Assembly (NCBI RefSeq): GCF_000230675.1
Contig: NZ_AGIK01000002.1
Span: forward strand, 248,001 to 312,000
Length of the DNA: 64,000 bases
Direction: 5' to 3'
DNA from: Synechococcus sp. WH 8016
GTDB taxonomy: Bacteria; Cyanobacteriota; Cyanobacteriia; PCC-6307; Cyanobiaceae
Below are positions 15,855 to 40,538 of the stretch, piece by piece. The first letter of the stretch is position 1. Each line of letters begins with the position of its first letter. The notes beneath the pieces are model-generated. The model worked only from the letters and a program-made list of their open reading frames with translations. It was not told where the DNA came from and did no database searches. The translations under genes and the position numbers were made by a program.

Positions 15855-15859
15855 GAGCT

Positions 15860-16930: not shown

Positions 16931-17054
16931 ATTAAAGATAAGTTAAAGAATAATAATACAGGGTAACACAGGCAAACACAATACAAAAAACCAAAAAAGT
17001 TATGACAGTGTAAAACAAAGAGGGGGTTTTAGGGTAAAATAAGACATATGCAGA

Positions 17055-17969
17055 TTGGTCTTGAAAAGAAAACCACCAATATTTGTATTATCAGCGCCTA
17101 GATCATTCTCATCAATATCAGCTTCTATACTGGGAGGACATCCCGAAGCATACTCTGTACCGGAATTGAACATACTGATCAAAGAAAACATGAAAAAGTT
17201 CATGGAAGAGTATAGGGATATTTTTATTCCACAAACACACGGATTGCTAAGAACGGTATCGGAACTATATGCAGGCGAACAAACAATGGAAACTATATCA
17301 ATGTCACACAGATGGATAATTAGAAGAGCAGATAGAAAAACAAGTGATATATATGAGGAAATTTGTGAGAAAATTTACCCGTTAACATTAATAGACAAGA
17401 GCCCAGCATATGCACTACTTCCTCAGAGGTTAGCGAGAATAAAAAAGTATTTTCCTGATGCCTACTACCTACACATAACAAGACACCCAATAGATATGAA
17501 CAAATCAATGTATAAGCTTGAGAAGGGAAAACTGTTGGCAATATTATCAAATTCGATAGATTTCTCAAAAGAAAATGAACTTATAGACCCACAACTTATG
17601 TGGTATACCTGTAACGCTAATATATTAGAGTTTCTGAAAAATATTAGTGAAGAAAAAAAGTTAACAATAAAAGGGGAGGAAATAATAAACAATAGAAAGG
17701 AGTCTCTAAGAAAAATATGCTCATGGATGAGTTGGAGTTGGTCTACAGATGCGTACGAACAAATGATCCATCCCGAAAACTCTCCCTATGCACAATTTGG
17801 GCCAATTGGAGCTGAGTTAGGTAGTGATCCTAATTTTTTACGATCACCAGAATTAAGACAAAATAATATCATAAGCGGTGGCCTAGAGGATAATCTTGAT
17901 TGGGTAGAGAAAGGCAGAAAACTTTATCCTCATGTAAAGAAGATGGGACTAAAGTTGGGATACACTTAA
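17055..17969 (+). CDS. Sulfotransferase-family protein
   Basis: Probable PAPS-dependent sulfotransferase of about 304 aa. The 5'-phosphosulfate loop is FVLSAPRSFSS near residue 10. The 3'-phosphate-binding segment is HITRHPIDMNKSMY near residue 140, where Arg and the later Ser are the usual ligands. The start is uncertain: TTG at 17055 or the next in-frame TTG at 17061, with no ATG in frame before the P-loop. The gene is the first of the rightward series in the island and has a 65-base gap before the ACP gene. Related proteins in PKS loci sulfate a hydroxyl of the acyl chain, sometimes to set up decarboxylative alkene formation. The acceptor here is unknown. Confidence 0.82.
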   Translation: MVLKRKPPIFVLSAPRSFSSISASILGGHPEAYSVPELNILIKENMKKFMEEYRDIFIPQTHGLLRTVSELYAGEQTMETISMSHRWIIRRADRKTSDIYEEICEKIYPLTLIDKSPAYALLPQRLARIKKYFPDAYYLHITRHPIDMNKSMYKLEKGKLLAILSNSIDFSKENELIDPQLMWYTCNANILEFLKNISEEKKLTIKGEEIINNRKESLRKICSWMSWSWSTDAYEQMIHPENSPYAQFGPIGAELGSDPNFLRSPELRQNNIISGGLEDNLDWVEKGRKLYPHVKKMGLKLGYT

Positions 17970-18034
17970 GAAAAAACAAAAAATGAGAACAAAATCGATG
18001 TATATGCTAGAATGAGCTCATCCTCAGAGTTCAA

Positions 18035-18343
18035 ATGTCCAAGCTGAAAACTTTGTCAGAACAGAGCCTCCAAAACGAAGTGATTGAAGTGGTGGCGGAA
18101 ATCATAAAAGATTGGGATCTTGAATCTGAGCAAAAAATAAGTAACGAAACAGGGCTAATTGGAGAGTTGGAGTTTGAATCAATCGATATTGTAAGATTAG
18201 TCGTAGCATTAGAGCAACATTTTGAATGTAGAGGAATTCCATTTGAAAAACTATTCATGAAAGATGGTGAATACATATCAGAGTTAAGAATAAATGAAAT
18301 TGCAACATTTTTAAACGAAAACGCAACAACAGGAGACAACTGA
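18035..18343 (+). CDS. Stand-alone acyl carrier protein
   Basis: A 102-aa acidic four-helix protein with the phosphopantetheine attachment region GELEFESIDIVRLVVALE. The Ser of ESID stands where most ACPs have DSL. It should be loaded by a phosphopantetheinyl transferase, and one is encoded at the end of the PKS region. Its stop overlaps the ATG of the phosphatase-superfamily gene (TGATG), so the two are coupled. A carrier role for the sulfotransferase or hydrolases next to it is an inference. Confidence 0.88.
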   Translation: MSKLKTLSEQSLQNEVIEVVAEIIKDWDLESEQKISNETGLIGELEFESIDIVRLVVALEQHFECRGIPFEKLFMKDGEYISELRINEIATFLNENATTGDN

Positions 18344-19941
18344 TGAAAAAAGTACTAATGATAGGGCTTGACGGGGCAACTTTCTCACTACTGAAACCCC
18401 TGATTAATCAAGGATATATGCCATTTTTAGGGGAAATCCTAAAAGAGGGTTATCATGCTGAATTGATATCGACTCCAGTACCACTTACACCACCTGGCTG
18501 GATCTCTACAGTCACTGGTGTAAAACCAGAGACACATGGAATATACGACTTTTTAAGACCAGAAGTTACAAATAATGGTGTATATCTTAAGGTGAATGAT
18601 TCGAGAGATATCAAAAACAATACAGTTTGGACAATAGCAAGCCGTCAGGGCAAAAAAATAACAAGCATGAACTTTTATGGAATGTCTCCACCTGTTGAGC
18701 TTGACGGTTATCTAATATCTGGCTTCATACCTTGGAAACATCTAAGGAGTGCTACGACACCTGAATCATTATTTGATGAAATAAAAGTAAGTAAAGATAT
18801 AGATATTAAGAAGCTTGGTATGGATATAAGTGAAGAAAAAAAATGCATCCAAGGATTGCCAGAATCAGAATATGAAGAATGGATAGAGATGCAAGCAGTA
18901 CGAGATGAGAACTGGACAAAACTAATGAAATATCTTATGAGAAAAGATCCAACAGATCTTACAGCAATAGTTTACGATGGTACTGATAAAATACAACATT
19001 TATTCTGGAGATATTTAGATCCAGAACTTGAGCAAAAAACGGTAACAAATGAATGGGCAAAGAGTATAAGAGAAAAGTGCCTTAATTACTATAAGCAAAT
19101 CGATATTTCAATTAGAGATTTGGTAAAAGAATCTGGTGGTGAAACGAATTTGGTAATCACATCAGATCATGGCTTTGGACCAACAGATGAAGTAGTATAC
19201 ATAAATGAGTGGCTACACAGACAGGGATATTTAAAATGGGCCAACGACACAGAAGAAGAAGATAACACAAAACTAACTGCGGATAGGATAAAAGACCATT
19301 CATCAATGATTGATTGGAAAAATACTATGGCATATGTACTCACACCAAGCAGTAACGCTATTTATATAAATAGAAAATCAGAAGTCAATGAGAATGGCAT
19401 AAGTGTGGAGGATTACCCTGGATTTTGCAAAAAAATACAAGAAGAACTATTAGCCTATAGTTGCGAGATTGATGGAGGCAAAATTTTCGTCAAAGCCGAT
19501 CTTAACGAAAAAAGAATGAATAAAGAGGAAGATTTAAACTGTGCACCCGATATAACTCTTGGTCTAAGAGACAGCGGTTTCGTTTCTATCTTAAGATCAG
19601 CAGAAGTAGTACGAAAACGTGAAGTAATAGATGGAACACATAGGCCGAATGGCATATTTATAGGCTACGGGCCAATGTTTAATAAGGGAACCGGAAAAGA
19701 ATTGTCGATTTATGATATTACTCCAATCTTATTATACGGCTTAGGAGCTTCGATACCAACTGGTCTGGACGGCGAGGTGCCAAAACATATAATTAATTCG
19801 GAATACTTGAAGGAAAATCCAGTAACTGTATCAGATAAATTGAATACAGAAAGGAAAGAATCTGAAAACAAAAAAGAAATATCAGAAGAGGAAAAAGAAG
19901 CTCTTATGGCTCAATTGAAAATGTTAGGATATATGGACTAG
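18343..19941 (+). CDS. Alkaline-phosphatase-superfamily hydrolase (type I phosphodiesterase-like)
   Basis: A 532-aa soluble protein of the type I phosphodiesterase/nucleotide pyrophosphatase group. It starts with the first metal site (MIGLDGATF). The probable nucleophile region is PPGWISTVTGVKPETHG. YDGTDKIQHLFW and TSDHGFGPTDE carry the further Asp and His ligands expected for a two-metal centre, and GTHRPNGIF supplies the late His. Such enzymes cut phosphate diesters or monoesters. The C-terminus is a Glu/Lys-rich helix. It is coupled to the ACP gene upstream and ends 72 bases before the alpha/beta-hydrolase gene. The substrate is unknown, and removal or transfer of a lipid head group is one possibility. 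Confidence 0.85.
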   Translation: MKKVLMIGLDGATFSLLKPLINQGYMPFLGEILKEGYHAELISTPVPLTPPGWISTVTGVKPETHGIYDFLRPEVTNNGVYLKVNDSRDIKNNTVWTIASRQGKKITSMNFYGMSPPVELDGYLISGFIPWKHLRSATTPESLFDEIKVSKDIDIKKLGMDISEEKKCIQGLPESEYEEWIEMQAVRDENWTKLMKYLMRKDPTDLTAIVYDGTDKIQHLFWRYLDPELEQKTVTNEWAKSIREKCLNYYKQIDISIRDLVKESGGETNLVITSDHGFGPTDEVVYINEWLHRQGYLKWANDTEEEDNTKLTADRIKDHSSMIDWKNTMAYVLTPSSNAIYINRKSEVNENGISVEDYPGFCKKIQEELLAYSCEIDGGKIFVKADLNEKRMNKEEDLNCAPDITLGLRDSGFVSILRSAEVVRKREVIDGTHRPNGIFIGYGPMFNKGTGKELSIYDITPILLYGLGASIPTGLDGEVPKHIINSEYLKENPVTVSDKLNTERKESENKKEISEEEKEALMAQLKMLGYMD

Positions 19942-20013
19942 CACTCAATAAAAGCATTTGTTGTGAACTCAGTTCATGCAATTGATTAACCAAATAGACA
20001 CATCGGAGTCAAA

Positions 20014-20883
20014 ATGAAAAAAGCAAATTGTCTAGGAGCAAAAATAAATTATATGATATTAGGTACGAGACAGGACAAGTCACCAATAGTACTTGTTCAT
20101 GGTCTAGGTGCGAATATATCATTCTGGTATATGAAAATAGCTAAAAAATTAACAGAAGATAGGCAAGTGATTATATACGACTTACGGGGTCATGGTTATA
20201 GTGATACAACTCCATCAGGTTACGATACTAGTACGATGGAAAAGGATTTAGCAGAGCTGTTAAGAATCAATGATGTAAAAAGTTACCATTTAGTCGGCCA
20301 TAGTTATGGTGCTGGAATATGCATATTGCATGCAGCAAAAAACCAAAAAAGTGTAAAAACATTAACAATTGCAGATATGCAGATAACAAGTTTACAACCA
20401 ATACTACAATTAAAAGAATGGCCACACTGGCAGAGGTGGAAAAAAGAACTGCTAGATAATGGTATAAAAAAATTACCAGAGGATACAAGCAACATAGACT
20501 TTACATTGCTTCAATACTTAAATACATTAACAGGAATACGGGGAGAAGCAGAAGGAAAAAGGTCGTTAAAGAAATTATCATTAAAAAACAAGGCTTCTAC
20601 GAGTTGGCATCAATTAATTAAAAATACTACTGCCAAAAAGGATTTTGAAGATCAATCATCATTGAAAAGAGAAATTATTACTTCATTGAGATTACCAATA
20701 TTATGTTTATATGGTGAGTTGTCACATTGCCTTCCAACGAGCAAGAAGATAAAAGAGCTAACAAAAGATTGTAAAAATATAGAGGTAGAGAATTTAGGTC
20801 ACTTTCATCCAGCGTTAAACCCTGATAGATTTATAATAGAAGTAACAAGATTCATAAAAGATATAGAAGCAAGAGGTCAGTGA
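20014..20883 (+). CDS. Alpha/beta-hydrolase
   Basis: A 289-aa hydrolase of the classical alpha/beta fold. The oxyanion-hole segment is IVLVHGLGANIS near residue 25, DLRGHGYSDT follows, and the nucleophile elbow is LVGHSYGAG near residue 95. The catalytic Asp/Glu is likely around CLYGELSHC, and the His is in LGHFHPALNP. It lacks a signal peptide. It could be a thioesterase or ester hydrolase releasing the acyl product, but sequence alone does not decide. It starts a run of six genes joined by 0-4 base gaps or overlaps up to 26029. Confidence 0.87.
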   Translation: MKKANCLGAKINYMILGTRQDKSPIVLVHGLGANISFWYMKIAKKLTEDRQVIIYDLRGHGYSDTTPSGYDTSTMEKDLAELLRINDVKSYHLVGHSYGAGICILHAAKNQKSVKTLTIADMQITSLQPILQLKEWPHWQRWKKELLDNGIKKLPEDTSNIDFTLLQYLNTLTGIRGEAEGKRSLKKLSLKNKASTSWHQLIKNTTAKKDFEDQSSLKREIITSLRLPILCLYGELSHCLPTSKKIKELTKDCKNIEVENLGHFHPALNPDRFIIEVTRFIKDIEARGQ

Positions 20884-20884
20884 A

Positions 20885-21634
20885 ATGTGTGAACAAAGCA
20901 AAGAACTAGTCTTAATCACAGGAGGAAGTAGTGGGATAGGAAAAGAGCTAGGTAGAGAATTCATAAAAAGGGGTTATATAGTGATTATTACTAGCAGTAA
21001 CAAGAAAAAACTATATAATACATACGAAGAAATTCAAAAAAATAAAAATGGTGAAAATCTCAAAGCGATAGTATGTGATGTAACCAAAGAAGAAGATGTA
21101 AAAGAGATGATAACAAAAGTAGAAGAATTGAAAGTAACAGTTTCTATATTAATCACATGTGCAGGAGTTAGTAAAAGTAAAGAATCCGAAAGAGTAATGC
21201 CTTATTCTATACAAGAACTACCCAAAGATGAATGGGATTCTATTCTCAATGTAAATCTAAAAGGAGTGTTCTTGACAAATAAAGCCATTTCAAACATTAT
21301 GAAAAAACAGCGGTATGGGCAAATAATAAATATAGGTTCATCAACAACAAAATATGGGCTACGAGGCCAGCCATATGCTCCAGCATATTGTGCTTCAAAA
21401 TTTGCAGTAATGGGCTTAGGTAAATCCTTGTCACACGAATTAGAAGAATACGGGATAACGGTACAAACAATATGCCCTGGTTTAGTAGAGACACCATTAA
21501 CGGAAAACACAGCACTAAAAACACTTTTTGACGGAAAAGCAATGAAACCAAAAAACCTGGCAAAATCAATAGCAGATATGATCGAATCGAACAAAATGAT
21601 CAAAACATTAAATCCATTTTATCTTCCAAATTAA
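20885..21634 (+). CDS. Short-chain dehydrogenase/reductase
   Basis: A 249-aa NAD(P)-dependent oxidoreductase. The cofactor loop is ITGGSSGIGKEL, TCAGVSK stands at the NNAG position, the catalytic Ser is in INIGSSTTKYG, and AYCASKFA gives Tyr and Lys. The PG motif after the active site is ICPGLVETPL. It begins one base after the hydrolase stop and ends on the first base of the next start (TAATG). It is a likely 3-oxoacyl or alcohol dehydrogenase for tailoring the product. It has no membrane segment. Confidence 0.9.
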   Translation: MCEQSKELVLITGGSSGIGKELGREFIKRGYIVIITSSNKKKLYNTYEEIQKNKNGENLKAIVCDVTKEEDVKEMITKVEELKVTVSILITCAGVSKSKESERVMPYSIQELPKDEWDSILNVNLKGVFLTNKAISNIMKKQRYGQIINIGSSTTKYGLRGQPYAPAYCASKFAVMGLGKSLSHELEEYGITVQTICPGLVETPLTENTALKTLFDGKAMKPKNLAKSIADMIESNKMIKTLNPFYLPN

Positions 21635-23184
21635 TGAAAGTTAATAACAAAAAAATATATAACCCATGCCCACAAAAGGGATGTCAAAGAAAGCAATTTG
21701 AAAAGATAAGTAAAAATGGATTTGGCGATGGAAACAATAGTTATGCACACTCATCGGCTTGGTTTAATGGAGCGCTCTATGTGGGGACTACGCGATGTAA
21801 CATGTGTATGCTCAAGTTTAGTGTGTCCCATAATTCTCAGACAGCACTTGAAGAAATGAAAATTTGGCCAGTAGAATGCCCAGATACAATAGAAGGAATA
21901 TATGAATTAGATAGAAGAGCACAGATCTGGAGGTATAGGCCTGAACTCAATGAATGGAAAATGGTGTATAGGTCGCCACTTGTTAGTCCCGTCGAGAAAT
22001 ATATGGAAACATTAAAAGGAAATGATGGAAAGGAGCGAAAGGTAAGTACGAAAAAAGACCTTGTACCGCGCGATATTGGCTATAGAGGAATGTGTGTTTT
22101 TAAGGGAAAATCAGATAAAGTGGAAGCGCTATATATAGCTTCGTGGGCTCCAAGTCTAGCACCAGGACCATTGATACTTAGGACTGAAGATGGAGAAAAC
22201 TTTGATATTGTCTCAGAATACGGCGTAATAGGGTTACCAGTTACAAGCATAAGATCGCTTATAAAATTTAAAGGGAAATTATATATGTCACCTACGGGTA
22301 GCAGGGGGGGTAATGCAAATACCTCTGATATTCAAGTGGTCTATGCGAGTGATGATCCAGCAAAAGGAAATTGGAAACAAACTATGATATCGGGATTTGG
22401 CGACATAAAAAATGAAAGTATATTTTCACTGGGAGTATCAAAAGATTGGCTATATGCAGGTACATTTAATTGCAATGGATACCAGATATGGAGAACAAAA
22501 GGAGGAAAGTATGCAGAGCACGACTGGGAATGCGTAGTAAAAGATGGGGCAGGTAGAGGGTCCACTAATCAAATAGCATTAAGTATATGTTACTTCAAAA
22601 ACAATCTATATGTAGGGAGTGGAATTCAAAATGGAGGATACGACAGGGTAAACATGATTGGTCCAGCAGCATCAACATTAATCAGAATAAACGAAGAAAC
22701 AGGAAAAAATGAATTAGTTGTAGGGACACCATATAAGAGAAATGGAGATGTAGTTATGCCGATATCAGGATTATCGGATGGTTTTGGAAATAAATTCAAT
22801 GGATATTTCTGGAGGATGACAAGTCATGAGGGATGGCTGTATCTAGGGACATACGATGCTAGTTGCCTTGTAGATTGGATAGAAGTAGATAAATTATCTA
22901 AATTAAACGCAGAATTGTTTAATCATATAGGCTTAGATATGATCAAGAAGAATAGAGGATTTGAACTATGGAGAAGCTACGATGGTGAAAATTGGATACC
23001 GGTTGATCGAAAGGGTTTTGGTTGCATTTTTAATAATGGGATAAGAAACTTAGTTTCAACACCAAAGGGCCTATTTGTAGGTACAGCAAATCCGTTCGGG
23101 CCAAAAATAGCGAAAGAAATAAATGGAAATTGGGAATATATAGATAACCCAGAAGGTGGACTTGAAGTATGGATGAGTCAATGA
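21634..23184 (+). CDS. Beta-propeller-like protein of unknown function
   Basis: A 516-aa protein I do not recognise by name. At least five blade-like repeats share a short pattern: ALYVGTTR, LYMSPTG, LYAGTFNCNGYQIWR, LYVGSGIQNGGYD and LYLGTYDA, each followed 30-60 residues later by a polar turn. This is the signature of a beta-propeller. The N-terminus is rich in Cys (NPCPQKGCQ, TTRCNMC, VECPD), a possible metal or disulfide cluster. There is no obvious signal peptide or membrane segment. It is translationally coupled to both neighbours. Its stop overlaps the start of the PqqD-like membrane protein, which suggests the two act together, perhaps in binding or maturing the exported product. Confidence 0.8.
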   Translation: MKVNNKKIYNPCPQKGCQRKQFEKISKNGFGDGNNSYAHSSAWFNGALYVGTTRCNMCMLKFSVSHNSQTALEEMKIWPVECPDTIEGIYELDRRAQIWRYRPELNEWKMVYRSPLVSPVEKYMETLKGNDGKERKVSTKKDLVPRDIGYRGMCVFKGKSDKVEALYIASWAPSLAPGPLILRTEDGENFDIVSEYGVIGLPVTSIRSLIKFKGKLYMSPTGSRGGNANTSDIQVVYASDDPAKGNWKQTMISGFGDIKNESIFSLGVSKDWLYAGTFNCNGYQIWRTKGGKYAEHDWECVVKDGAGRGSTNQIALSICYFKNNLYVGSGIQNGGYDRVNMIGPAASTLIRINEETGKNELVVGTPYKRNGDVVMPISGLSDGFGNKFNGYFWRMTSHEGWLYLGTYDASCLVDWIEVDKLSKLNAELFNHIGLDMIKKNRGFELWRSYDGENWIPVDRKGFGCIFNNGIRNLVSTPKGLFVGTANPFGPKIAKEINGNWEYIDNPEGGLEVWMSQ

Positions 23185-24527
23185 CATCAAGTAATACAAT
23201 GAAAACAGATGTATACAGATTCAACAATGTGAACAAAGTAATCTGTGCCAACTGCGCTGGAAAAAAGAGCAAAGTATACAAATTAATAAACAAAGATAAA
23301 AACACAGTGTACGAATTAGACATAAAAGACTACTATCTGTGTAAACTTTGTAATGGAAAAAATACAATAAATACAATTATAGAAACTTTCTCAACAGTAA
23401 CTGGTGATGATGTAGACAGAGAATCACTCATAGAATTTCTTCAAGAACTAGAAAAAGAGGGTATAATAGATAAGATAATTCAAATAGAATCGTCAAAAAC
23501 TATAAACATAGAAGACGAAGCGAGGATATATGCTGATATACTTAAAGAGTCAAAAAGAGAGACTGAATTAAAAATAGACGATGAAAATAATATCGAAGAA
23601 CCAAGCTTAATGATATGGATATGGGAGTCTAGAAATCCGCAGAATATATTAAAGGGGGCAAGCGAATTCAGTAAATCGATCAGGGGGTTTATAAACCTAG
23701 CTCAATATTCATTAGTCATACTATTCCCATTAGCAATTGGAACCATACTAAACAATATAGACCAACTCAAAGCCGATTATACAACTTACCTCATTGAAAA
23801 CATTCCGAATATTTTCGGCTTGCTAACAGTGGCTGGAGTTCAAGCATCACTGGCGGGATTGGCATCAGGAATCGTGACACAGTCGTTTAATAACCCTCCT
23901 ACAAGTATTAGCTTTGGCCTACTAATGGGATTTATTCCACAAGTTGCAATAAGATTTAAGTCTGAGTATTTAACAAGCAGGCAGAGAAGAATAGCTTTCT
24001 CATCAATTATTAAAGTTAGAATGTTTGTGTTATCGGTAGCGGTATATATATGGCAAACAAGTCACACCTATGGAACCACATTACCGTTTTATACGATTAT
24101 TTTCATAATTACAGGTTTTATAGGCTTGATAATTGATTCATTCCCTTTATGGCCATCACCAGGATATTATAGCCTTATATCTGCAATAGACAAACAAGAT
24201 GTAATCCGAAGCACAATAAGCATTTGGCTGATGCTTATTAAAGGAGTAAGCTTGCCTAAGGAGCTATCAGCTAGAAGGATAAATATTTCTAAAGTTATCG
24301 GAATAATAGGACTGATAGAAGGGCTTATAATAATATATATCTTAATATCGTTCTTGTCGAGAGGGATATCGGATGTTTTTGTTAAGGAAGTCTTCGGTGA
24401 AGGGGCACGGTGGCTAATATCACTAGGGCTAACGTTGTACGTTGCTAATGTGGTTTACAAATTTTGGAAAGCAATGAGCAATGCGAGAGAAGCTAAATTG
24501 GGAAGCATTCCCACAACAAAAAAATGA
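23181..24527 (+). CDS. PqqD-like domain fused to a degenerate M50-type membrane domain
   Basis: I start this at ATG 23181 (ATGA overlap with the propeller gene), giving 448 aa. ATG 23169 is also in frame. Residues about 10-105 resemble a PqqD-type winged helix: the segment YYLCKLCNGKNTINTIIETF corresponds to the usual leucine-x-D-G-x-T motif, with a CxxC (CANC) before it. Six or more membrane segments follow. The layout matches the YydH-like 'peptide zinc metalloprotease' group. However, no HExxH is present, and the second metal motif reads FPLWPSPGYYSL where DGYY is expected, so it should be catalytically inactive. It ends on the ATGA start of the HlyD-like gene, as M50-HlyD pairs in peptide-handling systems do. 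Confidence 0.75.
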   Translation: MTSSNTMKTDVYRFNNVNKVICANCAGKKSKVYKLINKDKNTVYELDIKDYYLCKLCNGKNTINTIIETFSTVTGDDVDRESLIEFLQELEKEGIIDKIIQIESSKTINIEDEARIYADILKESKRETELKIDDENNIEEPSLMIWIWESRNPQNILKGASEFSKSIRGFINLAQYSLVILFPLAIGTILNNIDQLKADYTTYLIENIPNIFGLLTVAGVQASLAGLASGIVTQSFNNPPTSISFGLLMGFIPQVAIRFKSEYLTSRQRRIAFSSIIKVRMFVLSVAVYIWQTSHTYGTTLPFYTIIFIITGFIGLIIDSFPLWPSPGYYSLISAIDKQDVIRSTISIWLMLIKGVSLPKELSARRINISKVIGIIGLIEGLIIIYILISFLSRGISDVFVKEVFGEGARWLISLGLTLYVANVVYKFWKAMSNAREAKLGSIPTTKK

Positions 24528-25639: not shown

Positions 25640-26029
25640 ATGACTGAAAGAGAACATTCAAGCAATCTTGAAGATATCAAAGAACGCAGAGATCTGGTAG
25701 AATATAACTTGTCACTAACAAACTATATACTAGAAAATATTAATAAAGTCAATATTCGGCAATCAGACGGAGAAACAGGCGGAAACTTAACAGGCGATAC
25801 AAAAGATGAAGATAAGAAAAAAGAAATGGTATTATTTGAAAAGCGGATAAAAATGATACTAGCTTTAGAAAAAAACGATGACCTTGACATAGATATGGTA
25901 ATCAAAAAGTACTTGCCAATACTGAACAGGATAAAACTCGCACAAGAAGGCGAAATAAAATTACTTAGTAAGCAGATAAGACAATATTATGGGAGTGATG
26001 ATACGGACAAGGAAGAATCTATAACGTAA
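25640..26029 (+). CDS. Small charged hypothetical protein
   Basis: A 129-aa, Glu/Asp/Lys-rich, mostly helical soluble protein with no motif I recognise. It has a low-complexity central part (DGETGGNLTGDTKDEDKKKE) and a helical C-terminal half. It starts on the base after the HlyD-like stop, so it is the last gene of the 20-26 kb operon. Acceptance rests on this perfect junction and on codon use like its neighbours. Confidence 0.65.
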   Translation: MTEREHSSNLEDIKERRDLVEYNLSLTNYILENINKVNIRQSDGETGGNLTGDTKDEDKKKEMVLFEKRIKMILALEKNDDLDIDMVIKKYLPILNRIKLAQEGEIKLLSKQIRQYYGSDDTDKEESIT

Positions 26030-32600: not shown

Positions 32601-32689
32601 TGACTAAATTAAAAACAATAAGTGCATTAGTATCTAATATTCAATCTTTATTAAGCAGTGCTGGGGGTACCGGCCTGGGAAAGTCCTAA
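26672..32689 (+). CDS. PUFA-synthase-like polyketide synthase: ER-like x2, KS, AT, ACP, ACP
   Basis: A 2005-aa multidomain enzyme. Residues about 1-340 and 345-640 are two nitropropane-dioxygenase-like TIM-barrel modules. The second carries the PfaD-type enoyl-reductase motifs QGPMTRVSD, RPWGVGILGF, IAGGRPDQA and EGRECGGHVGP. The first has the shorter echo ECGGMVGE and GGIGINTAGA. The ketosynthase (about 675-1150) has Cys891 in DAACASS and the two His at 1026 and 1066. The acyltransferase (about 1265-1560) has Ser1362 in GHSFG and CRGQLM with the malonate-binding Arg. Two ACPs follow, with DLGIDSIKRVEIL twice (Ser1839 and Ser1948). This is the start of a PfaA-like iterative lipid synthase. 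TTG 26672 is the longest start, and the true start is uncertain. The stop is followed at once by an ATG. Confidence 0.93.
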   Translation: MILLKVDQSFACLCLIPTSMEMRKLGDAVRAAGGTPVFDIEYESSPNWRKIIDEAQYHTQHKQLNKKITVKANIRQLEDVKINILNHTDSIEEVIISIDVDNVKNISKAIEGLRVKVILEIDRVSTLESIEKELERFSGIIVKGNECGGMVGEDSTFILFQKSYKIVKNRVNLFVRGGIGINTAGAFRATGASGVVLDDQLWLMPESPFLENFKKYFRNVSGQEAIPLGENIGITCRVFSKPGLEAVETLKSLLKSIEEKNQSSNEEMNEWEKGLMNRIGWGDPKVVAWPIGQTIGLTEVLTNKYKTTYNLVRAYLYETCSYLTDAILENPLRKDSKLAKSHGTKFPIVQGPMTRVSDTAEFADSVSCGGAPPMLALAMMKGEQARELLLKTKDLLESRPWGVGILGFAPKEIRDKQLEAVLEVKPQFALIAGGRPDQARDLEEKGIASYLHVPAPALLKIFIDQGARRFIFEGRECGGHVGPISSLVLWERMIETVISDIDKKYHPEISMLFAGGIHDRISAAFIAALTTKISSKGCKIGILMGTAYLFTKESVSCGAILDGYQKEAIKCVNTVNLETGIGHASRCAVTPFANEFKKVRKDMLVDKYSSDEIKDKLEGLSLGRLRIASKGKIRNESGKFEELKEEKIYNDGMFMIGQAATLRSEITTIDELHEEIIQGGEEMLIAEQDKSTICRDYGPSSPSNIAVIGIGSLLPGSHRPEDFWLNIQNKIDAITEIPRERWDWRIYYDSDKTARDKIYSKWGGFISPISFDPIKFGIPPKSLDSIEPLQLLTLEVVQQALEDSGYADRNFDRENTSVVLGAGGGLADLGQQYATRSEIPRFVENPDIHTWSRLPEWTEESFPGILLNVIAGRTANRFNLGGTNITIDAACASSLAAIDVAVKDLESGHSNLAIAGGIDTIQSPYAYYCFSKSQALSPRGKCFTFDQNADGICISEGLAVVVLKRLEDAERDGDKIYGVIKSVAGSSDGKGLGMTAPKSAGQVRAINRAYKKAGFSPATLGMYEAHGTGTAVGDRTEIQTLSSVMRDANAQPKTCSVGSAKTFVGHTKASAGVVGMVKALQSIYYKTIPPHINVEEPIDEIAHANSPIYINKNIKPWFKTSEIPRRAGISAFGFGGTNFHAVIEEYNDSHNDASGGDIWPFEIITITGKSKTDLIKSVKVLQGYIDNNYFKDLSQASYWSINKYQDISVKECIIAFTASSLGELSNDLTNIIEYLQTPDKTILSNKICLNLELRNQKESLAFVFPGQGSQYLEMMQELATYMPEIRQAIEKSEKVLSNKDTGLSIKDAIYPPSSYSEVYRNKQKEHLSQTKIAQPSLAVIETGLYDLLKRLDLNPNFVAGHSFGEYTALYASECIDSDDVVKIASCRGQLMQDSCDKFNGSMLAVFLEHEQVIERIKHEKNIFVANINSNSQTILSGPSVDLTQLSKKLTEEQVTNQMLNVSGAFHSEYVRDAEEALSTHLEDLNIKSPKVPIYCNSTGGIYPNDKTSIRNLLQKQITSSINFKGMIEEMHKDGARIFVEVGPKNILSSFIKETLGDKDSFTISVNEKHDSSLAAFLNAICNLLSRGVEINLSALFNGRNSTRLDPLNNIIKRDSGITLSGGSCTSNNISKGTNGRISPLTLEDINENRNKIKSKKQAQQISSESPPDGKILKKPLNQPIAKETRYLNQNLRNTSELLIAFQSHQETMRKFLAVQESVIGKFLNPSSETNVSHYHDAIITEEDNEILPLSYQINTDVPIEKTLQVNSLDSEQTITPKPIPISSPPTKTASNIENSEGVNTGRAESLSTLVLTHVSDRTGYPIEMLDLDQDIEADLGIDSIKRVEILGGLQKEMDTRSVQLITENMEIMTGIKTLRGLIDYLQPDKDSITNSPSSESKLFSQSEQASSTSIDTESIERIVINIISDRTGYPQEMLDVNQDIEADLGIDSIKRVEILSNIQSALFEENTSLLQENMENMTKLKTISALVSNIQSLLSSAGGTGLGKS

Positions 32690-35133
32690 ATGACGAAAAT
32701 CAAATTCATAATTACTTAATCGACAGCGTAGCCTCACCTCTTCAACAAATTAGTCATAACAACTATAAGGGTAGTCATTTAATAGTAGGCAAATTCCATA
32801 CATTAGGAGATGAATTACAGAGTTGCCTTGAAGCCGATGATTGTGATGTTTATTATGTAGATGAAGATAGGAGTATAGGTGACTATGACTGGGACAACTA
32901 TTTTCTACGCAACAAGATCGAGTTAAATGATTTACAGGGAATAACTTTTATTTTTTTAGAAGACGAAAACGATTCAATCAGTACGGAATCAATATTTAAA
33001 GAATTAGTATATTTCAGAAGCCTTATACATTATGCTTTAAGCAGATCGCATTCAATAAAGAAGACAATTCTTTTTACTGCTGTAACATTAATGGGTGGAG
33101 ACTTTGCTAGAACCAAAGTCTCTTCATTGCATTCTATTTATGGAGCTTATTTTTTAGGACTATTTAAATGTCTATCAATTGAACACCGCCATTGTAAGTT
33201 CAAAGCAGTTGATTTAGACGCATCAATTGATAGTCACTTTAATGCAAAGAATATAATGGAAGAAATAAAATATGAAGGAAGGTTAGAGGTTGGATACATC
33301 AATAATAAAAGAATTGTTTTCAATGTTAAAGAAGTTCCTTTTCATCTAACTTATGAGAAGCGGACAACAGAGAATTTAATTATCTTAGTATTTGGTGGTG
33401 CAAGGGGAATTACTGCTGAATGCCTGAAGCATATTCAAGACACAGAATGTACCCTAATAATTATCGGCAGGTCGTTTGAAATAGATTCTCGTAAAGAGTT
33501 TGCAAATTACAATAACTTTGAGGAGCTTAGAAAAGCACTTATAGATCACTATAAGGGAGAAAAAATTCCATCTCCTGCAGAAATCAATAGGGAATGTAGC
33601 AATATACTTCGGCAAAAAGAAATCAATGATAATATAAATATATTGACAAATAGCCGGGTCACTATTGAATACAAGACAGCTGATGTCACGAAGCTCGATG
33701 ATTTAGAATCAATAGTTAAGGACACTTATTCCCAATACGGAAGGATCGACGGAATCATCCATGCAGCTGGTATATTAAAGGATAAATTGTTTCTTGATCA
33801 GAACATTGATGCATTTAGACAAGTTTATAAGACTAAAGTAACAGTATTGGAGGCAATATATAGATACATTGATATCAAGAATCTGTCATTATTGATTTTT
33901 TTCAGTTCAGTTGCTGGACGCTTTGGTAATGTTGGTCAATCAGACTACGCATCAGCCAATGAAACAATCTCACGATTCGCATGTTATGCAAAACATTTAA
34001 ATACTAATCTCTGTGTAAATAGCATCTGTTGGGGACCGTGGGACACTACAGGTATGGCTAATGAAAGCGTAAAAGAAAGATTCAGGCAGCAAAAAATTAT
34101 ACCAATACCGTTACATTCTGGTGTATTAATGTTTGAAAAAGCATTCCTAGGTGGGTATATAAATACTGTTGAAGTGATTGCCGGTAAAGGACCCTGGGTT
34201 GGGTATGAAACTCATGATACAGAGAAATGCTTAACATCTACTATTGATCAGAGTTCACGACTGCCTTTTATAGAATCTGAAATAGACTATGAACCAACAG
34301 GGTCAGTCAGTTATTATTTTAAAATTGACAAATCCAATCATATCTTCCTTAATGATCACAAAATCGATGCAAATCCTGTCATTCCTGCTACTGGAGCCAT
34401 GGAATTGATGGCTGAATTAGTTCAAAAAGCATGGCCAGACTGGATAGTCACAGAAGTAAGAAGTCTTCGAGTATTAAAAGGAATTGTTATCGAAAGTGAA
34501 TTAATGTCCAAATCGATAAAAGTAAGGGCAAAGCCTTCGACTCACGCCTATGCAAATGAATTTTCTGTATCTGCATCAATCGTAGATAATACAACAAATC
34601 AAGTTTATTATTCAGCCACTGTAATACTCGGAAACAGCTTTCCAGACTCAAGTAATGAAAACTTTAACAGCGAAAAGTTATTGTTTAATGTGAACGCCAG
34701 TGATTTATATAAGAATAGTTTATTCCATGGTCCTTTATTTCAACTAATTGAAAAAACTACTGAAGCAACTACAAGTGGTATTTCAAGTATAGTGAAAGGG
34801 AGCACAATACAAGACTGGTTTAGTGTTATTAAGCAAGATCAATCCTGGATATTTGATCCTGGTCTGTTGGATACTGGGCCTCAATTAGCTATTGTCTGGG
34901 CTCGTAAAATGCATAATACTACACCTTTGCCAAGTCAGTTCGATTCTGTAATTAGATACCGAAAGACAAGCTCTTCAGAAACTTTTATAAGTATACTTAA
35001 AATCAAAGATTTTGATGGCATTAATATGACTTATGACGTTTTTTACTACGCCGAGAATGGAGAACTAGTAATCAAAATGAATGGATTAAAAGGTACATGC
35101 ATTGCCTCGTTAAATCGTCTATCCTCACAATGA
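32690..35133 (+). CDS. Ketoreductase-dehydratase subunit of the polyketide synthase, frame broken near its start
   Basis: The uninterrupted frame with an ATG runs 33091-35133 (680 aa), but the same frame is open and protein-like back to 32638. A natural ATG stands at 32690, directly after the TAA of the previous PKS gene. One extra A in the AAAA run at 32696-32699 would join that ATG to the long frame. Counting from 33091, the ketoreductase has FGGARGI near residue 103, with Ser273 and Tyr286 in FFSSVAGRFGNVGQSDYASA. The dehydratase double hot-dog has His423 (FLNDHKI...VIPA) and Asp594 (LLDTGPQL). It would reduce and dehydrate chains on the upstream ACPs. In relatives this part is often fused to the ACPs. 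Confidence 0.85.
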
Positions 35134-38100
35134 CAAATTCTCAACCTAATGACATAGCCATTATTGGCGTCTCAGCATTATTTCCAGGCTCTAAAAATAA
35201 AGATGAGTATTGGTCAAATATAATCAACAAAGTCAACAGCATTACAGAAGCTGGGGACGATTGGTGTCAAAACTATTATGACAAAGGATCAGAGCTAAGT
35301 AACAGAATCAATAACAATAAAGGTGGTTTTATTGGAAATATATCTCATTTTGATCCGATTAAATATGGGATAATGCCAAATTCAGTAGATGGTGGAGAAC
35401 CAGATCATTTTTTAGCTCTCAAACTTGCTTATGATGCTCTTAATGATGCAGGGTATATTCAAAAAGATTTCGACAGGAGAAATACTGGGATTATACTAGG
35501 GAGGGGAACATATATCAACAGAGGGTATAATACACTTCTTCAACATGGTCAAATTATAGATCAAACAATTGAGATATTGAGAAAAGTCTCTCCTAGCCTA
35601 GATTCAACACTAGAGAATAGAATTAGAAAAGAGCTTGAAGATTCATTGCCACCTTTCAATGCAGAGATGGCACCAGGATTAGTCCCTAACATTATCACCG
35701 GTAGGATTGCTAATAGATTGGATTTAATGGGCCCAAACTATATTATTGATGCTGCTTGCGCATCTTCTCTTGTCGCTGTAGATCAAGCAATTTATGAGTT
35801 AAATAGTAGAAGGTGCAATATGATGATAGCAGGGGGTGTTCACGCATCAACACCACCACAAATCAATATGATATTTTGTCAACTAGGAGCTTTATCAGAT
35901 ACTACTATCACACCCTTTAGTGATCATGCTGATGGGACATTATTATCCGAAGGGTTAGGTATGGTAGTTCTTAAGCGATTGCAAGATGCCAAGAGAGATA
36001 ATGATCGTATATATGCAATCATAAAAGGTATAGGTACTGCTAGCGATGGTAGAGGTCTTGGTTTATTAGCACCAAAAGAGGAAGGAGAAATCTTAGCTTT
36101 AGAAAGAGCTTATAAGAATGCAAATATTGATGCAGGAACTATAGGCCTGATAGAAGCACATGGAACAGGAATTCCCCTAGGTGATCAAACTGAAATTCGA
36201 TCTCTATCAAAAGTCTTAGGGAACATAAAAAAAATTCATCCTACATGTGCTGTAGGAAGTATTAAGTCCATGATTGGACATACTATTCCAGCAGCAGGTG
36301 TAGCTAGTCTTATTAAAACATCTTTATCACTGTATTATAAAGTACTACCTCCTACGCTATGTGAAAGCATTAATCCCGAATTAGAAATTCACAAAACTCG
36401 TCTTTATATTAATACTGAAACAAAGCCTTGGGTTCATTCTTCTTCTTTACCATATCCACGTAGAGCTGGTGTTAATGCTTTTGGCTTTGGGGGGATTAAT
36501 TCTCATGCTGTTCTTGAAGAATACATACCGTCTGATAATAGTAAAAATTCAAAAGCATCAAGCAATATATGGCCTTTTGAATTATTTTTAATCCAAGGCA
36601 ATTCATGGGATGAAGTAAATACAAAACTAATAGTTCTAAAGAAATTTATAGACAATAATCCAGATTGTCAAGTACGAAATCTTGCATTTTATTTATCAAA
36701 AGAACCCAATTGCTCACATAGAATTAGTTTTGTCACCAGTAGCTATACTGACCTATCTCAAAAAATAGAAAAAGCAAGAATGTGGCTAATTTCTTCACCT
36801 ATTAATTTAAAAAAACCTCCTAAATCTATTTTTGCCAACAAAATTGATGAGATTGATAGTAATGCAAATTGCTTCCTGTTCCCCGGTGAGGGCTCTCAAT
36901 ATTCAGGCATAATTAAAGATCTAGCAATCTACTTTCCAAGTATCAGGCACTGGCTAGATATCTTAGATTCAATGTCAATTAATGAAAGAGATCTACTTGC
37001 TAGCCAAGTCCTGTACCCTGCTATGGGCTCTATTAGCGGTGAAACAGAGGACGAAGTTAAAAAGAAATTATTTGAAATGGATTACTCGTCAGAAATAGTA
37101 TTTATTACAAGCCTTGCATTATATTCACTGCTAGAAGAACTTGGTGTTCCATGTAAGGCAATGATAGGTCATAGCTCAGGTGAAAATACAGCACTAGTTG
37201 CATCCGGTTTAATTCCAATTAATAATGAAAACCAAATAGTTGAAGTCATGTCCTCATTAAATAAAATCTATAAGAACTGCCTGAAAGATGAACCAATTGC
37301 CACCGGTGATTTACTTGCATGTGGTGGTATACAAGATGAGACACTTGATTTTCTTTTATCAGAATATCCGAATGATGTCTTTCTTGCAATGGATAACTGT
37401 CCGAATCAAAAAATCCTATATTGTACAAATTCTGTCTCTAGTAGGGTTCAAGAATATCTAGGTATTAATGGTGCTTTTATACAATTATTACCTTTTAATA
37501 GAGCATATCATACGCCTCTCTTTAATAAAGTGGCAACTGCTTTTCAAGAGTTTTATGAGTCTTTTGAATACTCTCGAAGCGATAAAAAAGTATTTAGTTG
37601 TTATTCGATTTGTGAATTCCCAGACAACAAAGAATCAATCGTAAACTTAGCGGTTAATCAATGGACTAACACTGTTAATTTTGCAAAAACAATTGAATTA
37701 GCAAGGGAGTCTGGCATTGATACTTTTATTGAAGTAGGGCCAAGCTCAAATCTTACAAATTTTATAAAGGATATTTTTCCGGATAATGCTATAGCTGCAT
37801 TTGCAACGAATCATCGCAGTAAAAATTCTCTTTCTTTCTTTTTGGAACTCCTTGCAAAACTTGCAGTAAGACATAATCTTAATTTAAGTCTTCTCTTTGA
37901 TGGCAGAGAGGTGATCGATATTAATATTGAGGATATTAATCCACCATCGAATAACAATGGTCAGCTTTTAAAGCTTAATATGCCTATTATGAGGCTTAGT
38001 ACCGATACAGCAGCCGAATTTTCTTCAACTCTCAAGCATCTATCCAAAGAAGTTATTACTAATTCAACTGAAAATAAGACTGAGTCAGTTCAAGCCAGTA

Positions 38101-39209
38101 TAGATAATAAAGTCAAGACAAAAAGTTTAAGTAGTACAAATCCGGAGCAATCAAAATCAATATCAAGTAATTCATTACAGCATAATCAAGAATATCTTTC
38201 AATCATTAACGAACACAGCAAATTAATGAACAGCTTTCTAATTAGCGAGCAAAATACAATGAATTTAGTTGCCAATAGTCTCAATAAAAATATTCAAAAT
38301 TCTAATTTAAAACATGATCCCAATGAGCTTAACCATCATACTTACCCCTTATTGGGATCGATTGTCGAGGCTAATTCTTCAGAGATAGTGTTTGAAAGAA
38401 CCTTTTCCATTGACAAAGACCTTTTCCTTATTGACCACACACTTGGTGCTAATCTTTCAATTAATAATAAACTATTAGTTGGTTTACCTGTTATTCCATT
38501 TACAATAAGCATGGAGATAATCTCCGAGGCAGCAGACTTTGCTTGTGGTGGTAATAACAAAGTTCTCGAAATTAAAGGGATAAGGGGCTATCGATGGCTG
38601 GCAATTGATGAAGATTCACTCACCTTAACCGTAAAGGCAAAATTCGTTTCCAATACAAATGGGGAAACAAGTATTGATGCCAAGATCTACCAATATAATC
38701 CAGATTCTAAAATTGGCCTTCAATTAGTTTTTGAAGGTATAGTTGTTTGTTCAAATTCTTTTAGAAATTATATTCCCTCTCATGCTATTAGTTTTCTAGA
38801 GTCTGACTTGAAGAGCTCTAGATGGAGTGATGACGAATTATATAAAACCGGTATGTTCCATGGGCCCAGATTTCAGGGAGTAAAAAAGATTAATGGCTGG
38901 TCTAATAAAGGGATCGATGCAACTTTACAGGTCATATCAACAAGTAATTTCTTTGAATTCACAGAACAACCGCAATTTAGATTAGATAGTGGTCTTATTG
39001 ATGCTGCAGGTCAACTTGTTGGTTACTGGGTCTCAGAGCAGTTTGGTACAGATTTTAATGTTTTTCCTTTTAGTGTCAAAAGTTTTTCTCAGTTTACAGA
39101 TATTTTGCCTGATGAAAGCAAATACGGTGTAAAGGCGAAATTAAATTTATTTCAGATCGTCAAACTACCGCTTATTTTGAGTTTGTGGACGAATCAGGTG
39201 ATGTCATAG
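35130..39209 (+). CDS. Polyketide synthase subunit: KS, AT, dehydratase, C-terminus shifted out of frame
   Basis: Starts at ATG 35130, overlapping the previous stop (ATGA), and gives 1359 aa. The ketosynthase has Cys210 in DAACASS and His344 and His384. The acyltransferase has Ser682 in GHSSGENTAL, an altered GEGSQ instead of GQGSQ, and Leu where the malonate-binding Arg should be (SSLNKIYKN against SCRGQLMQD in the first subunit). A long linker rich in Ser, Asn and Lys leads to a hot-dog dehydratase with His1103 (LIDHTLG) and Asp1291 (LIDAAGQL). After residue 1340 the reading frame leaves the dehydratase sequence. The correct continuation lies in the -1 frame and runs into the phosphopantetheinyl transferase. 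Without the shift the protein would be about 1617 aa. Confidence 0.9.
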   Translation: MTNSQPNDIAIIGVSALFPGSKNKDEYWSNIINKVNSITEAGDDWCQNYYDKGSELSNRINNNKGGFIGNISHFDPIKYGIMPNSVDGGEPDHFLALKLAYDALNDAGYIQKDFDRRNTGIILGRGTYINRGYNTLLQHGQIIDQTIEILRKVSPSLDSTLENRIRKELEDSLPPFNAEMAPGLVPNIITGRIANRLDLMGPNYIIDAACASSLVAVDQAIYELNSRRCNMMIAGGVHASTPPQINMIFCQLGALSDTTITPFSDHADGTLLSEGLGMVVLKRLQDAKRDNDRIYAIIKGIGTASDGRGLGLLAPKEEGEILALERAYKNANIDAGTIGLIEAHGTGIPLGDQTEIRSLSKVLGNIKKIHPTCAVGSIKSMIGHTIPAAGVASLIKTSLSLYYKVLPPTLCESINPELEIHKTRLYINTETKPWVHSSSLPYPRRAGVNAFGFGGINSHAVLEEYIPSDNSKNSKASSNIWPFELFLIQGNSWDEVNTKLIVLKKFIDNNPDCQVRNLAFYLSKEPNCSHRISFVTSSYTDLSQKIEKARMWLISSPINLKKPPKSIFANKIDEIDSNANCFLFPGEGSQYSGIIKDLAIYFPSIRHWLDILDSMSINERDLLASQVLYPAMGSISGETEDEVKKKLFEMDYSSEIVFITSLALYSLLEELGVPCKAMIGHSSGENTALVASGLIPINNENQIVEVMSSLNKIYKNCLKDEPIATGDLLACGGIQDETLDFLLSEYPNDVFLAMDNCPNQKILYCTNSVSSRVQEYLGINGAFIQLLPFNRAYHTPLFNKVATAFQEFYESFEYSRSDKKVFSCYSICEFPDNKESIVNLAVNQWTNTVNFAKTIELARESGIDTFIEVGPSSNLTNFIKDIFPDNAIAAFATNHRSKNSLSFFLELLAKLAVRHNLNLSLLFDGREVIDINIEDINPPSNNNGQLLKLNMPIMRLSTDTAAEFSSTLKHLSKEVITNSTENKTESVQASIDNKVKTKSLSSTNPEQSKSISSNSLQHNQEYLSIINEHSKLMNSFLISEQNTMNLVANSLNKNIQNSNLKHDPNELNHHTYPLLGSIVEANSSEIVFERTFSIDKDLFLIDHTLGANLSINNKLLVGLPVIPFTISMEIISEAADFACGGNNKVLEIKGIRGYRWLAIDEDSLTLTVKAKFVSNTNGETSIDAKIYQYNPDSKIGLQLVFEGIVVCSNSFRNYIPSHAISFLESDLKSSRWSDDELYKTGMFHGPRFQGVKKINGWSNKGIDATLQVISTSNFFEFTEQPQFRLDSGLIDAAGQLVGYWVSEQFGTDFNVFPFSVKSFSQFTDILPDESKYGVKAKLNLFQIVKLPLILSLWTNQVMS

Positions 39210-39982
39210 CCTGCCTCGAAGGTTGGGAAGATAGATATTTTGATATCCCAAATGAGTACTACAAATGTCGTCTAAATCCAAGTTCATCATTTATTACAAA
39301 AGACATCAAGCCTAATCATCTATATTGTCAATATTTAAGAGCATTTCCTGACGGATTTTTGGAAGACTCATGGAAAATATGGATGAGAGTCCTAGCACAT
39401 CTTGTTCTCTCCAAAAAGGAGAAAAAACATTGGTATGCTCTCCGTTCAACGCAACATCAAAAAGATTGGCTCATGGGACGTATTGCCGCAAAAAATTCAG
39501 TTCGTAAACTAGTTAAAGATAAGTTCTCCATCCTTTTATCTCCTGTTGATATATCAATATTGAATAATGATAATGGACTACCATTTGTAGAAAGTCCATA
39601 TCTTGCAAGCAATCAAGTGCCTAGTATTTCTATTTCACATCACCTTGGCTCAGCAGTTGCCATTTCTTCGCTGACACATAAGCTAGGCATTGATATATTA
39701 AATCATGCATCAATATCACACCTTGATGATTTAAAAATTGCCTTTTCAGAAATAGAATTTAATTCTCTGAAAAGATATGATCAATTTATTTTGCTTTGTG
39801 CTTTTTCTGCCAAAGAAAGTGTTTACAAAGCTAATTCCCTCTCAACATGGAATCCCCTTGACTTCATGGTCAAGGATGTTGACACTGCTCAAATGATTAT
39901 AACAATCTCCCATGCAGGGGTTGCTTATCCTGTTCAATGCTTACATGAAGAAGACAATCTCGTTACTTTTGTCTTATCCTAG
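39185..39982 (+). CDS. 4'-phosphopantetheinyl transferase domain (with dehydratase tail), probably part of the previous protein
   Basis: This frame begins in the dehydratase tail (FEFVDESGDVIACLEGWEDR is open from before the first start codon) and continues as a Sfp-type transferase. Seen are WLMGRIAAKNSVRKLV, SISISHHLG, LGIDILNH and FSAKESVYKA. The last two correspond to the Mg-binding Asp and the W/FxxKE(A/S)xxKA motif. The enzyme attaches phosphopantetheine to the ACPs of this synthase. The GRIAAK segment is characteristic of transferases integrated at the end of polyketide synthases. GTG 39185 is only a formal start. Restoring one T in the TTT at 39150-39152 fuses it to the KS-AT-DH protein. 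Confidence 0.85.
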   Translation: MDESGDVIACLEGWEDRYFDIPNEYYKCRLNPSSSFITKDIKPNHLYCQYLRAFPDGFLEDSWKIWMRVLAHLVLSKKEKKHWYALRSTQHQKDWLMGRIAAKNSVRKLVKDKFSILLSPVDISILNNDNGLPFVESPYLASNQVPSISISHHLGSAVAISSLTHKLGIDILNHASISHLDDLKIAFSEIEFNSLKRYDQFILLCAFSAKESVYKANSLSTWNPLDFMVKDVDTAQMIITISHAGVAYPVQCLHEEDNLVTFVLS

Positions 39983-40507: not shown

Positions 40508-40538
40508 ATCCACCAGGCATATTTGCGGCCTGGTGGAT
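40508..40538 (-). terminator. Intrinsic terminator of ahcY
   Basis: The arms 40508-40518 and 40528-40538 (GCCTGGTGGAT) pair perfectly over 11 bp around a 9-base loop. Read on the minus strand, the stem begins 18 bases after the ahcY stop and ends in GGATTTTTAC, a T-run, as expected for a factor-independent terminator. Confidence 0.85.

Follow-up and report, generated by a model that had tools for sequence, protein, structure and literature searches.

A horizontally spread, apparently undescribed polyketide synthase and sulfotransferase gene cluster in an AT-rich island of Synechococcus sp. WH 8016

Introduction

In the chemistry of CurM (curacin pathway) and of olefin synthase (OLS), the sulfate introduced by a sulfotransferase (ST) serves as a leaving group. 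According to PMC3098273, the Type P synthase makes C22-C26 chains of phenolic lipids, that of Azotobacter makes cyst lipids, and the Type P entries include Beijerinckia indica ATCC 9039. For the hgl (Type F) synthases, islands outside heterocyst formers and C24 1,3-diol analogues have been described in PMC11804610, the main text of which contains neither “Synechococcus” nor words starting with “sulf”. The word “sulfotransferase” is likewise absent from the main text of a 2026 survey of hybrid clusters resembling polyunsaturated fatty acid (PUFA) synthases (PMC13291983), and in a survey covering Fischerella (PMC4558948) the sulfotransferase domain is used once, as an olefin synthase marker. Here we describe a stretch of 64,000 nucleotides from the genome (2.69 Mb, 16 contigs) of Synechococcus sp. 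WH 8016 (contig NZ_AGIK01000002.1, positions 248,001 to 312,000; hereafter the window), in which a PUFA-synthase-like polyketide synthase (PKS) set and an ST lie together in an AT-rich island.

The cluster is real, has spread horizontally and is apparently undescribed. We propose, at roughly an even chance and judging from its gene content, that the island is a horizontally acquired biosynthetic cluster for a sulfate-modified, exported long-chain acyl lipid. The original prediction, made from the sequence alone, had placed a candidate lipid or polyketide pathway at 17055-39982. The genes that it named lie at those places, while the island is wider (10,747-40,554; Table 1).

Polyketide synthases, sulfotransferase and propeller

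The PKS set has the predicted architecture, with two enoylreductase (ER)-like domains, ketosynthase (KS), acyltransferase (AT) and two acyl carrier protein (ACP) domains in PKS1, ketoreductase and dehydratase (KR-DH) in PKS2, and KS-AT-DH followed by a phosphopantetheinyl transferase (PPTase) in PKS3 and the next gene. Pfam and NCBIfam recovered the domains, and hhalign matched residues 1-332 of PKS1 to residues 333-690 (154 columns, probability 92.4%, E = 5e-7), indicating two tandem ER-like domains. Both KS domains (PKS1 and PKS3) retain the active-site Cys motif by eye, and therefore neither looks like a chain-length factor. The curated cut-off of TIGR02813 (PfaA; 1010 bits) was reached by none of PKS1 (870.3 bits), PKS2 (236.5 bits) and PKS3 (514.6 bits).

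In a KS tree of 61 rows, built by a quick method with SH-aLRT support only and with long-branch warnings for four rows, the PKS1 ketosynthases (KS1) formed a clade of 22 (SH-aLRT 97). This clade was sister to, and not inside, the KS of Beijerinckia and Methylosinus (97), the two Type P-like rows that represent Type P in a tree without Azotobacter itself. The PKS3 ketosynthases (KS3) formed a clade of 28 (SH-aLRT 99). Hgl-like KS of Fischerella and Westiellopsis, which we take as hgl by inference, fell with a Persicobacter KS in another clade (100), apart from KS1. By the KS tree, the synthase is thus nearest to the Type P phenolic-lipid synthase and not to Hgl. This kinship makes a reduced chain likelier than a polyunsaturated one. 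The predicted long-chain unit stands and, of its “reduced or unsaturated” chain, the reduced form is preferred. A PUFA product was considered and is disfavoured by the Type P kinship of KS1.

The ST of the window had only two significant matches in the PDB, the ST of CurM (4gbm, E = 6.7e-24) and that of OLS (4gox, E = 8.6e-21), the next match being at E = 0.26. This exclusive kinship suggests that the ST probably acts on an ACP-bound chain. In an ST tree of 72 rows, in which unlinked STs sit on long branches with unsure placing, a subfamily of ACP-fused type joined CurM and OLS (98% SH-aLRT); the OLS row came from a 2834-aa FAAL-ACP-KS-AT-KR-ACP-ST-hydrolase protein. Related loci show two layouts, either a stand-alone ACP with an alkaline-phosphatase-superfamily phosphodiesterase (PDE) or a longer ST with an ACP-like N-terminus, and Cyanaurora has the PDE together with the longer ST. 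Where ACP and PDE are both present, they adjoin in most loci. In Haliea (G553), no ST was detected in the fetched PKS locus; its 4.8-Mb genome has 23 Sulfotransfer_3 matches, some of which may be pieces of one gene.

The operon upstream of the synthase (17,055-26,029) is as tightly coupled as predicted, with gaps of 65, -1, 72, 1, -1, -16, -4 and 0 bp, and 642 bp separate its end (26029) from PKS1. Pfam and NCBIfam matches agree with the predicted ST, ACP, PDE, hydrolase, short-chain dehydrogenase (SDR) and HlyD labels. The propeller gene (21634) had no Pfam or NCBIfam match at E 0.001 and no PDB sequence match at E 1, but the predicted fold is borne out by an AlphaFold2 model built with 30 family members, which is a beta-propeller with pLDDT 90.3 and pTM 0.92. 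Against known folds, query-normalised TM-scores of Foldseek were at most 0.45 with 8-16% identity among the matches listed, and the best VIA-align match had Z 27.6 and rmsd 3.1 over 294 aligned residues at 9% identity. These matches are generic kelch/WD40-like propellers, and thus no function follows from the fold; the protein may be a scaffold or a tailoring enzyme. Shorter, diverged propeller-like proteins (357-453 aa) adjoin extra STs in several loci (L054, 4019-5380 and 7341-8573; L062, 18632-19828; L072, 2215-3288).

The following gene had been labelled a PqqD/M50-like membrane protein. The window protein had no Pfam match over cut-off and no PqqD match at 0.001, and sub-threshold PqqD matches occurred in two of five relatives (E = 0.061 and 0.0085; best 16.8 bits against a gathering cut-off of 23.4), so the PqqD part of the label is weak. 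The HExxH metal site was absent from all three M50-like proteins checked; by its sequence the protein is not a recognisable protease. Its relative in Synechococcus sp. Tobar12-5m-g (G048), which belongs to the same family as the window, is fused to HlyD.

Distribution of the cluster

Among 201 genomes of the family, the propeller was found in six and the M50-like protein in three. The PKS3 query matched 197 of the 201, mostly through ordinary KS enzymes. Matches with E <1e-100, a line set after inspecting the match list, occurred in seven genomes, namely all six with the propeller and G102, which has a lone KS (Fisher’s exact test with kinship ignored: p = 8e-11). Of 386 genomes drawn from the phylum, eight had the propeller, the window’s included. 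A pattern scan with the propeller alignment over a collection of 84,980 species returned 133 stretches, of which 28 were confirmed as loci, in Cyanobacteria, Gammaproteobacteria, unplaced Proteobacteria metagenome-assembled genomes (MAGs), Tectomicrobia and Binatia. The M50-like query gave 48 pattern hits and no confirmed locus in the genome contig collection, and neither the propeller nor the M50-like protein had a match in the plasmids searched.

We tabulated 33 genomes: the 28 scan loci (Tobar12-5m-g among them), the window, G062, G023, G037 and G075; five genomes of the phylum draw, represented by loci of about 4.5 kb only, were left out. The fetched DNA amounted to 3.9-90 kb per genome, window counted, and all counts are lower bounds. 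PKS1 was present in 22 loci sets, PKS2 in 24, PKS3 in 27, the M50-like protein in 13, an ST of the window’s type in 22 and one of ACP-fused type in 14, the hydrolase in 15, the PDE in 12, the ACP in 10, the esterase and the sulfatase-like gene in six each, a dioxygenase in five and each SDR in three. HlyD occurred in 24. The prediction of a single unit that joins the synthase with sulfation and membrane-transfer genes is supported.

The predicted neighbourhood recurs in other genomes, and, contrary to the refuting outcome named with the original prediction, synthase and operon do occur together elsewhere. Some PKS was found in 29 of the 33, on the contig of the propeller in 22 and on another contig in seven, and genomes with both propeller and synthase span Cyanobacteria, Gammaproteobacteria and Tectomicrobia. 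In Tobar12-5m-g, synthase and operon form one same-strand run (PKS1-PKS2-PKS3(PPT)-ACP-PDE-dioxygenase-esterase-condensation-like-hydrolase-SDR-propeller-M50::HlyD), with the two blocks swapped relative to the window. Identities to the window there are 45% over 2060 aa for PKS1, 47% over 1361 aa for PKS3, 56% for the ACP and 64% for the PDE. The order PKS1-PKS2-PKS3-ACP-PDE, or nearly so, was also found in three Fischerella genomes, Westiellopsis, a Chroococcus MAG, Haliea and a proteobacterial MAG. A MAG named Tatlockia (L049, L091) has a locus and KS very close to those of the Chroococcus MAG, and its contig may therefore be cyanobacterial, binned under a proteobacterial name.

The island and its genes

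The island is AT-rich, as predicted (GC 0.363, against 0.594 and 0.560 in the flanks), and is missing from sibling genomes. The sibling G123 aligns with the window at 6988-10746 and 40555-42495 with 90-91% identity and has 505 bp in between; 10,747-40,554 is therefore an insertion or a replacement. Twelve siblings were drawn for the spacing of the flank genes. In all nine with both genes on one contig they are 1.2-2.9 kb apart, against 31 kb here; one more has them on different contigs and two had no ahcY match. Five other picocyanobacteria have a related cluster, which was not seen beside ahcY in any of them: it is on a different contig in Tobar12-5m-g and G037 and more than 500 kb off in G062, G023 and G075, which points to separate insertions. 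The GC content of the cluster is also unlike that of its flanks in these genomes, except against one flank of G075.

The remnant near the left end of the island shares 78-85% identity with five copies in the G023 locus and 87% over 486 bp with a single place in G075. It had no Pfam match, and its insertion sequence (IS)-like label rests on repetition. In G023, the related locus is spread over about 60 kb (L036, L037, L047, L038, L039) and holds at least five copies of this IS-like element. A second insertion relative to G123 lies at 42,495-45,244 of the window (about 2.7 kb, against about 35 bp in G123) and encodes a protein of 882 aa that matches Fer4_5 weakly. An Rfam scan of 9,000-41,500 and a tRNA search found nothing, and promoter and terminator scans gave no clear excess over shuffled sequences (44 against 41.6 and 6 against 4.1, respectively).

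Table 1 Features of the island, with positions in the window
Feature	Position	Strand	Basis or remark
Whole island	10747..40554		Between upstream gene (10084-10746) and ahcY
Decayed IS-like element	11341..12334		Near left end of island
Alkaline-phosphatase/sulfatase-superfamily protein (STM4013-like)	12851..13756	-	Pfam Sulfatase 3e-7
TPR protein	13749..14486	-	Pfam TPR_19; membership doubtful
SDR	15078..15854	-	Pfam adh_short
PHB-depolymerase-type esterase	15860..16930	-	Pfam Esterase_PHB
ST, CurM/OLS kin	17055..17969	+	Sulfotransfer_3 2e-19
Stand-alone ACP	18035..18343	+	PP-binding 1e-4
Alkaline-phosphatase-superfamily PDE	18343..19941	+	Phosphodiest 2e-40
Alpha/beta hydrolase, candidate thioesterase	20014..20883	+	Abhydrolase_1 3e-25
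SDR	20885..21634	+	adh_short 4e-51
Signature beta-propeller protein	21634..23184	+	AlphaFold2 model; without family
Degenerate M50-like membrane protein	23169..24527	+	M50-like label by eye
HlyD-type adaptor	24524..25639	+	Pfam HlyD_D23/HlyD_3
Small protein, perhaps conserved in position	25640..26029	+	Positional match in Tobar12-5m-g
PKS1: ER-like, ER, KS, AT, ACP, ACP	26672..32689	+	Pfam/NCBIfam NMO-KS-AT-2xACP
PKS2: KR-DH	32690..35133	+	Pfam KR-PS_DH from 33091; N-terminal part 32690-33091
PKS3: KS-AT-DH	35097..39209	+	Pfam KS-AT-PS_DH
PPTase	39185..39982	+	ACPS 1e-9; C-terminal part of PKS3 in nearest relatives

On the minus strand, the sulfatase-like gene (12851) has 66-67% identity to genes near the propeller in Westiellopsis and three Fischerella genomes, and 60% identity to a Haliea gene that lies some 30 kb away from the propeller; the unit therefore reaches left of 17,055, where the original prediction began. 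The SDR (15078) has relatives of 41-61% identity in a few related loci, and the esterase (15860) a 42% match inside the Tobar12-5m-g cluster. Since these three genes recur in 5, 2 and 5, respectively, of the other 32 loci sets, they probably belong to the unit. For the TPR protein (13749), related loci gave no more than weak TPR matches. The small protein at 25640 matches, over 27 residues (1e-4, pairwise comparison), a gene of 129 aa in the same position in Tobar12-5m-g. In Fischerella thermalis (L051, 6317-8781), cytochrome bd oxidase genes adjoin the sulfatase-like gene and the propeller.

The window copy has two reading-frame problems. In PKS2, about 400 bp of coding sequence lie in the same frame upstream of the first usable start. 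This upstream frame is homologous to the N-termini of relatives, is coding-like in composition and stayed open in none of 5000 shuffles. PKS3 and the PPTase are in two frames, separated by a frame change in the region of 39,116-39,122; in all ten relatives aligned across the junction, which were chosen for open reading frames (ORFs) longer than 1,500 aa, a single frame spans both, and the switch lies near 39,119. Not every locus has this fusion, since the PKS3 ORFs of several others are shorter, at about 1,060-1,140 aa. Programmed -1 frameshifting was considered at both junctions. Slippery heptamers lie in frame at 32677 (GGGAAAG) and 39143 (AAATTTA), but such heptamers occur 24 times in the 4055 codons of the three PKS genes. 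At the PKS3/PPTase junction, frameshifting was rejected since the homology of relatives has already changed frame at about 39,119, before the heptamer at 39143 is reached. At the PKS1/PKS2 junction it may occur but is not needed.

Proposed pathway and alternatives

From these genes we infer a route together with its substrate, order of steps, export and product. The linked PPTase would activate the tandem ACPs, on which PKS1-3 would assemble an acyl chain iteratively, reducing it for the most part. The chain would be handed to the dedicated ACP, where the CurM/OLS-type ST would sulfate a hydroxyl, and the thioesterase-like hydrolase would then release it. Dehydrogenases, phosphodiesterase and esterase may tailor the chain, and the M50-like/HlyD membrane pair may move the lipid into or across the envelope. 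The roles proposed for the alkaline-phosphatase-superfamily and HlyD proteins follow general knowledge of these families. We favour a retained sulfate, as in an anionic envelope lipid or a secreted one, over its loss.

Several observations weigh against this proposal. The ST of the window belongs to the stand-alone subfamily, in its own clade (support 87), and not to the ACP-fused one. Of two STs of ACP-fused type, Pfam recognised an ACP domain in that of G062, which supports the proposal, and none in that of G037, which blastp matched to the window ACP at 1e-6. The ACP-PDE pair, the SDRs, the esterase and the sulfatase-like genes occur in a minority of loci. The fetched DNA of four of the 33 genomes (Chlorogloea, Symplocastrum, the gamma MAG MASabin.4 and Binatia) lacks a PKS; in a whole-genome search with PKS3, all 19 tabulated genomes searched (Symplocastrum not among them) gave matches, ordinary KS included, with PKS3-type pieces at 40-51% in MASabin.4. 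Binatia has a PKS1-type protein inside the KS1 clade. Three further points against the proposal, the hydrolase residues, the location of the ST in Tobar12-5m-g and the two frame problems, bear also on the alternatives below.

The kinship of the ST with CurM and OLS admits a termination of the curacin/OLS kind, in which the ST would activate a beta-hydroxyacyl-ACP and the hydrolase would cleave it, releasing CO2 and sulfate, so that the product would be a long-chain terminal alkene free of sulfate. We regard this as rather unlikely. In its favour, the two STs are the sole significant PDB matches, those of ACP-fused type in sister clusters group with them, and the genes for ACP, ST and a Ser-His hydrolase are near one another. 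In a comparison of 14 members of the hydrolase family with one OLS thioesterase sequence, Ser and His are kept, Asp stands at the OLS Glu position, and Ser occupies in both what we take to be the usual acid site. However, the Arg pair of the OLS thioesterase, presumably sulfate-binding, is not kept in the family. ST and hydrolase are moreover separate genes, the hydrolase was unseen in 18 of the 33 loci sets (presence being a lower bound), several clusters carry at least two stand-alone STs, and the island proteins scanned include no FAAL loading domain. Of the sulfate decoration in the original prediction, the sulfation gene is thus upheld, and decoration is one of two readings.

A product akin to the structural lipids of Type P or Hgl systems, with STs that are mere neighbours acting on another partner such as a sugar or a protein, seems improbable to us. 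KS1 is sister to the Type P-like KS, and the Type P synthase of Azotobacter produces cyst lipids (PMC3098273); the ST of Tobar12-5m-g is on a different contig from the cluster, and seven of the 33 loci sets show neither ST type. An ST of either type is nevertheless present in the other 26, and the ACP fusion points to a carrier-bound substrate. Finally, the cluster of this strain might be a decaying import without a product, which we consider very unlikely. The frame change between PKS3 and PPTase and the PKS2 N-terminal part without a usable start could be early decay, the insertion is strain-specific with an IS-like remnant near one end, and the Chlorogloea sp. CCALA 695 genome holds a PKS3 fragment with four stops, its other PKS matches being at most 32%. 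The propeller and HlyD frames of that locus (L057) look broken, and this copy is probably decaying. In the window, both frame problems could be small sequence errors, the PKS2 frame remains homologous and coding-like in composition upstream of its first usable start, no other gene is interrupted and the domains retain their catalytic motifs by eye. With its two frame problems, this copy may be subject to decay, which the original prediction had named as a contrary outcome.

More broadly, we tentatively suggest, with somewhat less than even confidence, that such clusters make an undescribed and widespread class of long-chain lipids that are sulfated and exported. The synthase would be a relative of the phenolic-lipid synthase with two KS, the propeller would mark the cluster, sulfation would take place while the chain is carrier-bound, and the genes would have moved between phyla as a unit. 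If so, PUFA-type synthases would be linked with the ST chemistry of curacin and olefin synthesis; to our knowledge, PUFA-type iterative synthesis and ACP-bound sulfation are known only apart. It would also be a new lipid class for picocyanobacteria and for unrelated purple sulfur, marine gamma and uncultured bacteria, with the propeller as a sequence marker for finding it. Some carriers of the cluster are cultured strains, which are amenable to mass spectrometry and perhaps to knockouts.

Comparison with known systems

No description of this gene set was found in the literature searched, where most subscription journals lay outside coverage. The island shares the KS-AT-ACP-KR-DH logic of PfaA, TIGR02813 being the best NCBIfam match, but PKS1 stays under its cut-off (870 against 1010 bits) and no chain-length factor was recognised. 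With hgl it has in common PUFA-synthase-like iterative enzymes in cyanobacteria. However, Fischerella and Westiellopsis carry further PUFA-like loci in the same genomes, the KS of which fall in a clade apart from that of the island KS, and the Pfam hits of the island proteins scanned include HlyD and neither a glycosyltransferase (hglT) nor an HgdBC-type ABC exporter.

The likeness to Type P (ars; Azotobacter, Beijerinckia) is more extensive. PKS1 aligns over most of its length, ER pair included, with Beijerinckia and Methylosinus proteins (35-38%). PKS2 corresponds to their KR (29%), and the last part of PKS3 (24%) and the PPTase (29-34%) both align with their DH-PPTase protein; we assign the Beijerinckia plasmid cluster to Type P from strain name and layout. 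Unlike these systems, the island has an extra KS-AT on PKS3. Two KS-III-type genes adjoin the Beijerinckia synthase, whereas no type III PKS was found among the island proteins scanned, and the island carries ST, propeller, ACP-PDE and M50/HlyD genes instead. With CurM and OLS, the island shares the kinship of the ST and the combination of ACP, ST and hydrolase. It differs from them in that these are separate proteins and in that, in place of a FAAL-loaded modular chain, a PUFA-like synthase would supply the acyl chain.

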